Assembly (NCBI GenBank): GCA_938023035.1
Contig: CALIDI010000051.1
Location: 1 to 64,000, forward strand
Direction: 5' to 3'
DNA from: an uncultured Leptolyngbyaceae cyanobacterium
GTDB taxonomy: Bacteria > Cyanobacteriota > Cyanobacteriia > Leptolyngbyales > Leptolyngbyaceae
DNA length: 64,000 bases
Each line of letters begins with the position of its first letter. Position 1 is the stretch's first letter. The notes below the pieces were generated by a model that was not told the DNA's origin, did no database searches, and saw only the letters and a list, made by a program, of their open reading frames with translations. Of the stretch, positions 58,939-63,304 are shown one piece after another. Made by a program: the position numbers and the translations under genes.

Positions 58939-59769
58939 TAGGACAACGGGGCAAAAACTCGTTACCGATGCAGGCATCTTGAATACTTCGTTGTGAAGGT
59001 GTCATCATGAATTCCGCATAGCGGCACCAGTATCTGGGAATAATTTGCAAGATTAAGCATCAATCTTGATAGAGCAATCGATGAGATTGTTCGGACAATC
59101 AAACGTCTTAGCAGTTTTGATAGAAATGTCTTTCAGTCCTAAAGCTTTCATTGAGAGCCTATCACCTTCACAGGCCCTCATCCCCCATCCTCTTCTCCCA
59201 ACCTAGGAGAAGGAGCGCCGAGCCATCTCAAAGTCTCTCTCCCACCCCCCCTTAGCCCCCCAGACAGGGGAAGGGAGAGAGAATTAAGGTTTAGCTTGCT
59301 TCCCGCAGGGTAGGTTACGAAACTGGCATGCACTCTGAGCGATTGTCAGAAGAGAAAGCATACTGGCTGTAGCCAACATTAGCCCATTGGCAATGTTGGC
59401 AAGGCAGAAAACTGTAAAGCTATGTAAATGTACTGAAAATGAAGAATATTTGTGCAGTCTTTGTCAAGACCAGAAAACAGCCGAACAATCGGCTCAGCCC
59501 AGGTTTTAGCTCAATTTAAGTAATTGAAGTAGGGAATCCGCTTCCGTTACAAATAGGCATTTTCTGTTCCCTTGCCCAAAAAATGAGGCGATCGCTCAGT
59601 ATGTTTTCGAGGGATATAAACTTTCCATGACGCAGATTCCGTGTTTGCGACAGTTTTTTTTCTCCGATAAGCGCCTATCTTAAGACAGTGAAGGCTAAAC
59701 CGATAGCAGGTTGCTACGGAAATGGCCCAACAAATTCCTATCCTTCTAGTCGCAAAGGGAATTAAAACA
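58939..59769. repeat. Spacer before gvpA with ATGCAC-ended dispersed repeat (59155-59336)
   Basis: Gene-free. The repeat starts TCACCTTCACAGGCCCTCATCCCCC (shared with 17161) and ends GCTTGCTTCCCGCAGGGT, then GGTTACGAAACTGGCATGCAC (shared with 26617-26656). Between lie TCTCTCCC...GGGAGAGAG arms. The 59340-59769 part contains the gvpA upstream region: AT-rich, no clear -35/-10 could be fixed. Confidence 0.6.
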
Positions 59770-59988
59770 ATGGCTGTTGAAAAAGTAAACTCCTCTTCAA
59801 GTTTGGCTGAAGTTATTGATCGGATTTTGGATAAGGGTATCGTGATTGATGCCTGGGTTCGGGTTTCTCTCGTCGGCATTGAACTCTTGGCCGTTGAAGC
59901 TCGTGTTGTGATTGCCTCTGTTGAGACCTACCTCAAGTATGCAGAAGCTGTGGGCTTAACCACCCAAGCCGCTGTGCCTGCTGCCTAG
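59770..59988 (+). CDS. gvpA: Gas vesicle structural protein GvpA
   Basis: 72 residues from the ATG at 59770; the frame extends upstream to 59722, but GvpA always starts with the sequence seen here ([22 protein letters not shown]). It is the main shell protein: [54 protein letters not shown] is nearly the cyanobacterial consensus. It forms the ribbed wall of gas vesicles. Only one copy is in the window. AGGGAA lies upstream. Confidence 0.98.
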
Positions 59989-60502: not shown

Positions 60503-61588
60503 ATGTCTCTTTACCACTCCTGGCAGCAGTCACGACAGCAGAGAAATCAAACTGTTCGAGCGTTTCTGGCGACAGCACAGCAACAACGTCAGATTACAGC
60601 GACACAACTGCGGGATGATTTGACCCTATTTCGAGAAATCCTAGCTCAGCAAGATCAGATGCGGCGGGAAAACGCCCAGCAATTGCAACAGCAGTTACAG
60701 CAATTCAAAACCGCGTTGCAGACAGATATTCAGACCTTTTTAACCTCAACGGCTAGCCAACGCCGGGCAGAGGCTCAACAACTAGCGCAGGATTTAGCTG
60801 CTTTTCGGCAATCACTCCAAGCCGAGGTGGCCGATCTCCGTCAGGATTTGCAGTTGGAATTGGCCGTCAATCAGGAAGGGGTGAATCAATTTTTAAGCCA
60901 GTGTCACGCCCAACGCAAGACCCTGCACTTACAAACCACCCAAGCATTGGCTGAATTTGTCGATAACCTGCGTTTAGAGGTGCAAACCTATCTGACCGCG
61001 ACTCAATCGGCCCGGCAAGAGATGGCTACGCAACTGCGCCAAACGTTGGCTCAAAGTTGGGCAAAGCGTACCGCAGAGATGCAAACTCTATTTGACCAGT
61101 TGGGACAATTTCGAGGAGAGTTAGGGCAATTTCGGAGCAATTTACGGCAGCAAGTCTGGGGAACTGCTGTTCCGCTTGTGGCTAGACCCACGCAGGTGGT
61201 AGCAAAGCCCAAAATGACCAAACCTCCCACGCTGGCTGTGCCTAAGCCGGTTTCGAGCAAGCCTGAAAAAGCTAGCCTGCCAACATCCTCTAGGTCGCTA
61301 GCTGCTGCTATACCAACGAAGCCAACTGGTATCTCTACCCCTGTCGGAGGTTCGCCGCATGGAGGAACAATCGCTGTGGCCCCTGCCCCTACGCCTACTC
61401 CCCTTTCTTACGAAAAGGCTGTTTACAACCACATCCACAAAACGAGTGGTGCCCGACTGACTGAGATTGAGGCGGCTCTGGAGATAAATCGCATTCAAGC
61501 AGTAGATGCCCTGCGATCGCTGATTAAGAAAGGCCTGATTACCCAGCGCGATCGCATCTATCTTGTCCAAGAACCCATCCTCTCCTGA
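60503..61588 (+). CDS. gvpC: Gas vesicle protein GvpC with C-terminal winged-helix domain
   Basis: 361 residues from the ATG at 60503 with AAGGAG upstream. Imperfect 33-residue-type repeats of amphipathic helix begin with F/Y-L at residues 21, 79, 130 and 163 (pattern FL...R...L...L..F...L). GvpC binds the outside of the GvpA shell and stiffens it. A Pro/Ala/Lys linker (about 225-300) and a C-terminal domain (300-361) follow, in which AVYNHIHKTSGARLTEIEAAL-INRIQAVDALRSLIKKGLITQRDRIYLV fits a winged helix; GvpN ends with a like domain. Known Anabaena GvpC (about 193 residues) lacks this extension. The repeats are degenerate, so the GvpC name rests on position and repeat pattern. Confidence 0.85.
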   Translation: MSLYHSWQQSRQQRNQTVRAFLATAQQQRQITATQLRDDLTLFREILAQQDQMRRENAQQLQQQLQQFKTALQTDIQTFLTSTASQRRAEAQQLAQDLAAFRQSLQAEVADLRQDLQLELAVNQEGVNQFLSQCHAQRKTLHLQTTQALAEFVDNLRLEVQTYLTATQSARQEMATQLRQTLAQSWAKRTAEMQTLFDQLGQFRGELGQFRSNLRQQVWGTAVPLVARPTQVVAKPKMTKPPTLAVPKPVSSKPEKASLPTSSRSLAAAIPTKPTGISTPVGGSPHGGTIAVAPAPTPTPLSYEKAVYNHIHKTSGARLTEIEAALEINRIQAVDALRSLIKKGLITQRDRIYLVQEPILS

Positions 61589-61664
61589 GCCTGGGTGACA
61601 TTGAACTCACAACATCTAGCTCACAATCCTAATCTTGCCCATTTCATTTAGTGAGGTTTTACCC

Positions 61665-62951
61665 GTGACCACGATTCTTCGAGCCAGCCCCCGCCGATTT
61701 GTCAGCACCCCCACCGTAGATCGAGTGATTGCCCGCGCTCTACGCTACTTGCAGTCGGGCTACTCTGTTCATTTGCGTGGCCCGGCGGGCACTGGTAAAA
61801 CGACCCTGGCCTTACACCTAGCTGATTTACTTGCCCGTCCTATCATGCTGGTTTATGGAGATGATGAATTCAAAACCTCTGACCTGATTGGCAATCAGTT
61901 AGGGTATACCCGCAAAAAGGTGGTAGACAACTTTATTCATAGCGTTGTCAAAGTGGAGGATGAGCTGCGCCAGAATTGGGTAGATTCCCGTCTAACCCTG
62001 GCCTGCCGTGAAGGTTTCACCCTGGTGTACGACGAATTTAATCGTTCTCGCCCGGAGGTGAATAATGTGCTGCTGTCAGCTTTGGAAGAAAAGCTCCTGG
62101 TATTGCCACCCAGCAACAACCGCAGTGAATATATCCGGGTCAACCCTCATTTTCGTGCTATTTTTACCTCCAACCCCGAAGAGTACGTTGGGGTTCACGC
62201 TACACAAGATGCTCTGCTAGATCGGTTGATAACCATTAACATCCCCGAACCGGATGAACTAACTCAGCAAGAAATTCTCGTGCAAAAGACAGAAATTCAG
62301 CGGCCAGATGCCCTTTTGATTGTGCGCTTGGTCAAGGAATTTCGCCAACGCACAAATAGTGAGAAGGTTTCAGGCCTGCGTGCTTGCTTGATGATTGCCA
62401 AAATTTGCCATGATCATGCGATTCAGGTGAACGCTGGTAGCCAGGAATTTCGTGATGTCTGCTGTGATGTTTTACTTTCCCGTGCTGAAGTGCCACTGAA
62501 GACAGCTACCACGACGCTTTGGGAACTGCTGAATGGGGCAATTGGGGTAGGTTTAGGTCATTCAGAACGCCTGAATGAGCCTTACCCGGAAACAATCGCG
62601 CAACCGGTGCTGCCGAATCACAGTGCATCCCTGCTGCCGATTGGCGAAGAAACGACAACCGTGATTGCCGAACCTGCGATGGCAGAATCCGTTCAAGAAA
62701 TTGCAGAGTTAGCACCCCCAGAAACCGTGGCGACGGTGGCAGAACCCCGGGTTTCAGAGGCTCCTCCTACCCCTCCTAAGGAAGTTGTTCTCCGCTTTCT
62801 CAAACAGGCAGAGGGCGTCCGGTTAGCCGAAATTGAACAGGCTTTGAATCTGGATCGGTTTCAGACGGTAGATTCCCTGAGGCTCTTACTCAAAGAAGGG
62901 CTGGTCGAACAACGCAACCGCTTTTACTTTGCGAAGGAGATGGCATCATGA
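61665..62951 (+). CDS. gvpN: Gas vesicle AAA+ ATPase GvpN with C-terminal winged-helix domain
   Basis: 428 residues from the GTG at 61665 (GTGAGG upstream); a TTG at 61635 would add ten. The N-terminus [21 protein letters not shown] matches GvpN. MoxR-type AAA+: Walker [15 protein letters not shown] (about 45-60), Walker [25 protein letters not shown], sensor [19 protein letters not shown]. GvpN is thought to help load or assemble shell protein. A Pro/Ala/Glu-rich linker (about 310-370) leads to the last ~55 residues [51 protein letters not shown], similar to the GvpC C-terminus. Its stop overlaps the gvpJ start (ATGA). Confidence 0.93.
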
Positions 62952-63304
62952 GTACGGCAACGCTCTCACCTCGAGATGGCGATCGCACCATTCGCACAGC
63001 CACCCCTGGTTCGACCCTGGCGGACGTGCTAGAGCGGGTACTTGACAAGGGTCTTGTGATTGCGGGGGATATTTCAGTATCAGTCGCCGACACCGAACTG
63101 CTCAACATCCGCATTCGATTGTTGATTTCTTCTGTAGATAAAGCCCGAGAGATTGGCATCAACTGGTGGGAAAACAATCCCCACTTCAGCGCTCAAACCC
63201 GTGAATTGGTGGAAACCAATCGGCAACTCCTGCAAAGAATCGATACGCTGGAAACAGAACTGCGTGAATTACGCCAGCTTGCCCCTGTGCGACCCACTAT
63301 CTAG
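62948..63304 (+). CDS. gvpJ: Gas vesicle protein GvpJ
   Basis: 118 residues, a GvpA paralogue with a longer C-terminus. [60 protein letters not shown] matches the GvpA fold with the GvpJ signature end, then a coiled coil ([25 protein letters not shown]). GvpJ is a minor component at the vesicle tip/nucleation. Start overlaps gvpN by 4 bp, so they are translationally coupled. Confidence 0.92.

Follow-up and report, generated by a model that had tools for sequence, protein, structure and literature searches.

Why should two dissimilar gas-vesicle proteins, the coat protein GvpC and the AAA+ ATPase GvpN, end in what looks like the same small domain, and what might that domain do? The question is raised by the end of a 64,000-nucleotide stretch of DNA from an uncultured Leptolyngbyaceae cyanobacterium (hereafter the window), which is a cyanobacterial gas-vesicle cluster in the order gvpA, gvpC, gvpN, gvpJ, gvpK. 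A first-pass annotation of this DNA had pointed out the likeness of the two C-terminal tails.

The gas-vesicle cluster

The cluster contains the following features.

59770-59988, forward strand: gvpA, shell protein; ORF opens at 59722, probable start at 59770 from MAVEKV
60503-61588, forward strand: gvpC, between gvpA and gvpN; 361 aa, 40.4 kDa, with a C-terminal winged-helix-like tail
61130-61162, forward strand: motif FRSNLRQQVWG in GvpC, corresponding to the FRQDLFVSIFG-type motif at which classical GvpC ends
61163-61408, forward strand: GvpC linker, rich in Pro/Thr/Ala/Ser, about 82 aa
61409-61570, forward strand: GvpC tail domain, residues 303-356, winged-helix-like
61665-62951, forward strand: gvpN, AAA+ ATPase, 428 aa; ORF opens at TTG 61635
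61698-62483, forward strand: AAA+ part of GvpN, TIGR02640 match
62484-62774, forward strand: GvpN stretch from AAA+ part to tail, about 97 aa, mostly Glu/Ala/Thr/Pro/Leu-rich linker
62775-62933, forward strand: GvpN tail domain, residues 371-423, predicted winged helix H1-S1-H2-H3-S2-S3
62948-63304, forward strand: gvpJ, overlapping the gvpN stop codon
63631-64000, forward strand: gvpK, with a C-terminal GvpA-type Gas_vesicle domain; continues past the window to contig position 64134

GvpA matches Gas_vesicle at 60.8 bits and, within residues 17-86 of the long ORF, PRK09371 at 137 bits, and GvpN exceeds the curated cut-off of TIGR02640 (394.8 versus 266.8 bits). The GvpN start appears better placed at GTG 61665 than at TTG 61635, because the former fits the MTT(V)L start of relatives; this start gives the 428-residue protein implied by the earlier residue numbering, and the coordinates of the first-pass annotation proved right. 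The C-terminus of GvpK in the window (L006:4632-5135) is a second, GvpA-type domain (GvpK 107 bits, Gas_vesicle 53 bits), and in several relatives the gvpK frame gives a weak GvpJ match at the same C-terminal place. The genome of the window (G000) also encodes two GvpF/GvpL homologues on contigs C26 and C43 (L109, L110), away from gvpACNJK, so that its assembly has the gas-vesicle genes on more than one contig.

Comparison of the GvpC and GvpN tails

The GvpC and GvpN tails share 45% identity over 66 residues (BLASTP E 5e-13), and an hhalign comparison of 15 GvpC tails with 14 GvpN tails gave a probability of 99.9 and an E-value of 1.3e-31. By Smith-Waterman alignment, the last 62 residues of the two proteins scored 128, against 22.4 +/- 4.2 (maximum 42) in 2000 shuffles (z 25), bearing out the resemblance originally noticed by eye in the sequence. 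The GvpC and GvpN linkers scored 37 against 31.4 +/- 5.8 in 500 shuffles; because the linkers score about as shuffled sequence while the tails match, the likeness is confined to the domain, and low complexity was rejected as its source. These comparisons confirm, at the level of sequence, that GvpC and GvpN terminate in homologous domains of ~55 residues. No third tail copy was found in the genome of the window by single-protein or profile search. With two copies in that genome, the idea of a general DNA-binding family spread through it is not supported.

Predicted fold of the tails

AlphaFold2 was given two separate alignments, one of 15 GvpC tails and one of 14 GvpN tails. The GvpN tail was predicted as a textbook winged helix (order H1-S1-H2-H3-S2-S3, pLDDT 86.7), whereas the GvpC tail showed the same three helices with no confident wing (pLDDT 72.2), so that the winged-helix-like fold suggested earlier is confident for GvpN and reduces to three helices and an uncertain wing for GvpC. 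Both models were compared with known structures by VIA-align, and the GvpN model also by Foldseek. In VIA-align, 287 of 999 chains matched the GvpN tail model at Z 8, with 4ija_B at Z 10.4, the best value (rmsd 1.2, 58 residues), and none of 761 chains matched the GvpC tail model at this level (best 7.5); Foldseek returned no PDB match for the GvpN tail model at E <= 0.001 (best 1.4e-3). A sequence search of the PDB found weak relatives alone, headed by a viral Zalpha domain (E 0.0028). Among Pfam families, TrmB scored 26.7 on the isolated GvpC tail (cut-off 25.6) and 22.0 on it within the whole protein, and HTH_27 scored 22.4 on the isolated GvpN tail (cut-off 22.2) and 17.9 within the whole protein. 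The fold predicted for the tails, with confidence for GvpN, is that of MarR/TrmB/Zalpha-type winged helices, to which their sequence similarity is weak, and of RPA32C, for which a structure with a bound protein partner is listed (4mqv); being generic, this fold is uninformative on function.

Because the top families and chains (TrmB, HTH_27, MarR, Zalpha) are nucleic-acid-binding winged helices, the tails might contact DNA or RNA, either to anchor vesicles and GvpN at the nucleoid or to control gvp expression. Among 46 GvpC tails, Leu25, Glu29, Arg36, Asp56, Arg57 and Tyr59 (tail-alignment numbering) are invariant and the wing mostly reads QRDRxY, the near invariance of its Arg-Asp-Arg speaking for such contacts. 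The recognition helix points the other way: Asn and Tyr of Zalpha contact Z-DNA, and where the matched Zalpha chain has S, N, R and Y, GvpC tails mostly have F/V/I, V, D and R. The mean net charge is +0.5 for GvpC tails (-5 to 4) and -0.5 for GvpN tails (-7 to 6). A recognition helix and a roughly zero net charge that appear unlike those of a typical DNA-reading helix lean against nucleic acid, as does the nature of GvpC as a coat protein, and we consider this role improbable.

Identity of the tailed GvpC

The window GvpC matches classical GvpC by phmmer at E 8e-5, and a match at E <= 1e-3 was obtained in 13 of 19 tailed loci. On the TIGR02641 repeat model, its body scores 14.8 bits (cut-off 18.8); when the tails were removed from nine tailed relatives, three passed (L079, L080, L106), three fell just below the cut-off (L097, L102, L108) and three gave no match (L095, L099, L104). 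The PF01304 GvpC repeat had no match in the window GvpC at E <= 1 and matched one of eight other tailed GvpCs, below its cut-off (20.3 versus 21). The window GvpC shows a periodicity of 33 (z 5.0), and period 51 scores higher (z 5.6).

The motif found at the end of classical GvpC, FRxxLxxx[VI][WFI]G, is present in the window GvpC and in 14 of the 19 tailed GvpCs, where it is followed by 99-190 residues comprising linker and tail (five have no match to the pattern); shuffled GvpC bodies gave a mean of 0.005 matches by chance. Classical GvpC of the Anabaena and Microcystis type has a repeat body and this end motif without linker or tail. At all 26 loci of a clade with untailed GvpC, described below, the protein ends 0-5 residues past the motif, in agreement with the earlier view that classical GvpC lacks the domain. 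Untailed GvpCs beyond the clade end 17-36 residues past the motif (L091 twice, L111, L122), which is absent from L090. Because the classical end motif is kept before linker and tail, the tail is, judging from this layout, a module added onto an otherwise ordinary GvpC.

The likeness has a precedent in Planktothrix, reported in 2017: the C-terminus of GvpC40 from non-planktic strains, a ~40 kDa protein with four degenerate repeats, has a 28-residue stretch 64% identical to GvpN and a 60-residue stretch 78% similar to Geitlerinema GvpC (PMC5259702). The window GvpC resembles GvpC40 in size (40.4 versus ~40 kDa) and in its GvpN-like C-terminal stretch. The available part of that account concerns one genus and names no fold or role, and the window protein comes from another family. 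Our literature search, with most subscription papers outside its scope, found no published fold, survey or role for the tail. The core of the resemblance was therefore already on record for one genus, and what is new here is the predicted fold, the breadth, the pairing and the pattern of loss.

Distribution of the tails

Within the order, 33 of 42 genomes encode a GvpN that exceeds the cut-off, and each of these contains exactly two tail copies; the nine genomes without GvpN contain none. At each of the 30 loci fetched from the 33, the tail is present on GvpN as well as on its upstream ORF, a count based on 60 profile rows, two per locus, and on GvpN rows retrieved with phmmer. Among named genomes, a scan gave 14 loci, mostly from Leptolyngbyaceae or their neighbours, with a tailed GvpC in 14 and a tailed GvpN in 13, the exception being L104, where a tailed GvpC is accompanied by a tailless GvpN frame of 388 residues. 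Both proteins are tailed in L103 of Stenomitos frigidus ULC18 and in L102 of Oculatella sp. LEGE 06141. Relatives thus carry the pair, in every one of the 33 order genomes that have GvpN and in 13 of the 14 named relatives.

To the phylum as a whole we applied an even draw of 386 genomes, of which 56 have GvpN, at 58 loci. Calling tails at E < 1e-3, both proteins are tailed at 19 loci, GvpN alone at eight (L083, L085-L089, L122, L146), neither at 31 and GvpC alone at none, a both-or-neither association with a Fisher p of 2e-9 when kinship is ignored. At nine of the 31 loci with neither (L084 twice, L092, L093, L094, L117-L120) no classical GvpC was recognised, and the call there means an untailed GvpN and no tailed neighbour; the contig of L094 has just 3634 bases. 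The GvpC tail is missing in the surveyed Nostoc-like relatives. Genome G301 combines a cluster in which both proteins are tailed with a second one that has a classical GvpC and a faint GvpN tail.

Gene order varies among these loci. L075-L078 are permuted, with gvpN-gvpJ-gvpK first and gvpA, then a short tailed GvpC, ~5 kb downstream of gvpN; the tailed GvpC there follows the sole recognised gvpA. In L118 (G139), gvpN and gvpA lie on one strand and gvpJ and gvpK on the other, and GvpN is fast-evolving, with an end branch of 0.98. L084 (G358) has two gvpN-gvpJ pairs 4 kb apart and no recognised gvpC; nearby are a repetitive coiled-coil gene and a gene whose product, judged by eye, resembles a double P-loop ATPase of the ArsA type. 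At least two gvpA copies (two to eight) lie near 19 of 39 untailed rows (e.g. L132-L134, L089, L146, L122) and near none of 19 tailed rows. By independent pairs, untailed GvpC and repeated gvpA gave a median p of 1, some stretches ending at contig ends; the repetition of gvpA is possibly linked to planktonic life and not to the tail itself.

Outside gvp loci in the 386 genomes, the tail profile, for which the best 15 candidates or fewer per genome were scored at first look, matched proteins in at least 44 genomes of family f31, which lack GvpN, and at least two helicases. Two of the 44 f31 matches were inspected and are iron-dependent repressor domains over their cut-off; the two helicases are of the DEAD-box type and match the RecQ zinc-binding domain below its cut-off. 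Apart from these, the matches listed lie in gvp loci, and the tail subfamily looks dedicated to gas vesicles.

History of the tails

A quick tree of 85 GvpN AAA domains (58 survey rows and 27 order rows) places 26 rows in a clade with untailed GvpC (SH-aLRT 100), comprising all seven rows of f6, a family that seems Microcystis-like, 18 of the 22 of f7, and L083. The state of the GvpN tail changes at least four times within this clade and not once among the 46 rows with tailed GvpC. Parsimony itself is blind to direction; we favour losses, since by eye the ends of L051 and L055 resemble truncated remnants. On the GvpC side, a second, fresh loss is seen in L122, which lacks the tail and most of the linker that its sister L121 keeps. 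The two GvpCs (39.5 kDa, tailed, in L121; 28.6 kDa, untailed, in L122) have the sizes of GvpC40 and GvpC28 of non-planktic and planktic Planktothrix, as far as the accessible portion of PMC5259702 describes them. Other deep rows of the tree lack both tails, which would fit either gain or loss at the root. Tree-based independent pairs for the association of tail states numbered three on starred branches, too few, with a median p of 0.5.

On a tree of their own, the GvpC and GvpN tails mostly separate, the free tree requiring seven changes against a shuffled mean of 33, and a constraint placing each in one clade was not rejected (p-AU 0.83). The duplicated module suggested at the outset thus fits a single old duplication behind the two tails, which we regard as possible.

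Conservation and covariation

The 54 GvpN tails are freer than the 46 GvpC tails: at equal AAA divergence, median differences over core columns are 0.18, 0.29 and 0.46 for the GvpC tail and 0.29, 0.51 and 0.62 for the GvpN tail. The GvpN linker, measured in the 54 GvpNs from the AAA match to the last 62 residues, spans 25-206 residues (median 76). The stricter conservation of the GvpC tail would suit a GvpN ring that grips this tail as a handle, the GvpN tail acting as a competing pseudo-substrate (autoinhibition); so would the finding that in the tree sample every tailless GvpN accompanies an untailed GvpC, with L104, which is not in the tree, as an exception. Nothing here indicates an AAA ring acting on a winged helix, and we judge this mechanism highly improbable.

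Distances between GvpC and GvpN tails correlate (partial r 0.30, p 0.0005; 0.27, p 0.001 in a second computation). The GvpN tail correlates with the GvpC body at 0.285, and the tail-tail value falls to 0.19 (p 0.003) when the body is controlled for; co-evolution specific to the tails is not established, the tail-tail correlation being no stronger than that between GvpN tail and GvpC body. Faster decay of retained GvpN tails where GvpC is untailed was not seen in seven rows of the untailed clade.

Proposed role of the tails

We propose, with a probability of roughly 55%, that the tails are a docking module coupling GvpN to the GvpC coat and bringing the ATPase to the shell for growth. A duplicated winged-helix domain would here be used for protein docking: GvpC on the vesicle shell would have its own tail pointing outward at the end of a flexible linker, further copies would be presented by the GvpN ring on linkers of its own, and the tails would meet directly or bridged, bringing the ATPase to the GvpC-covered shell, where it would act during rib growth. 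Four elements of this picture are inferred: protein as the ligand of the domain, GvpN and GvpC as the partners, a ring form of GvpN in this system, and a use of the contact in growth. Docking is the simplest reading because a homologous domain stands on both proteins, on long linkers, and it is supported by the paired presence of the tails, by the constancy of the GvpN-tail state among the 46 rows with tailed GvpC against at least four changes in the untailed clade, by a tail subfamily that looks dedicated to gas vesicles, and by the recognition-helix residues and near-zero mean charge described above.

Precedents also support it. The CcmM scaffold of the beta-carboxysome carries SSUL modules, whose fold differs from the winged helix. 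Rubisco activase, like GvpN an AAA+ ATPase, carries them too, and in the available description they serve its recruitment to the pre-carboxysome matrix of that other protein organelle (PMC8580825). In Halobacterium, GvpN is described as binding the ~60-residue C-terminal portion of GvpC, which itself self-associates and has a zinc-finger motif (PMC9372576, PMC9501494), so that haloarchaeal GvpC, as portrayed in the accessible text, has a repeat body followed, as in tailed GvpC, by a small C-terminal portion, theirs binding GvpN. The tail profile gave no match to GvpC or GvpN of Halobacterium and Haloplanus, or to GvpN and the preceding ORF of three proteobacterial plasmids (10 proteins from 5 of 25 plasmid records, best E 0.096). 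Kinship of the tail to the haloarchaeal C-terminal portion was not found by profile; given this and the zinc-finger motif there, the comparison concerns working and not descent.

The same haloarchaeal system suggests another arrangement, in which each tail docks separately on a third protein, for example of GvpF/GvpL type, in assembly complexes and not for recruitment to the coat: in the available accounts, GvpL is a binding partner of GvpN and also of the GvpC C-terminus in Halobacterium, GvpF/GvpL homologues are encoded on other contigs of the present genome, and homologous domains are a simple means to share one site. Nothing in the present data points to such a partner, and we hold this arrangement to be unlikely.

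Several observations count against docking of GvpN on GvpC. Eight loci have a tail on GvpN alone and L104 shows the reverse; independent contrasts are few, covariation is not tail-specific and retained GvpN tails are not faster; the conserved Arg-Asp-Arg of the wing is also explicable by nucleic-acid contact; and the GvpC tail is weakly modelled, at pLDDT 72 and with its wing missing, with no Foldseek match of the GvpN model at E <= 0.001.

What the coupling would achieve can be pictured in a further way. GvpN-less mutants form bicones without elongation, and the part played by assembly proteins and GvpN ATP hydrolysis in GvpA insertion was called unclear in 2024, in the accessible text of PMC11445434. 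A review, as available, relays the proposal for haloarchaea that GvpN or GvpO interrupts the GvpC mesh at the place of GvpA insertion (PMC9501494). Drawing on this, GvpC tails might mesh over the shell and the GvpN tail substitute for them, opening the coat at GvpA insertion; by swapping its own tail for that of GvpC, GvpN would set where and how much the vesicle grows, and permanently planktonic lineages would have lost the lock. If true, this would be direct molecular mimicry through a homologous domain on both partners; we offer it as a doubtful elaboration.

Implications

The tailed proteins are genuine, and form a widespread variant of gas-vesicle proteins already known. With homologous domains on both GvpN and the coat protein, a concrete handle is available, two separable domains of ~60 residues, by which the GvpN-GvpC link becomes testable. 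The distribution suggests that lineages with classical untailed GvpC, including the kinds usually studied, lack a part of the system that many of their relatives possess, and the tail is a possible outward docking site for vesicle engineering.
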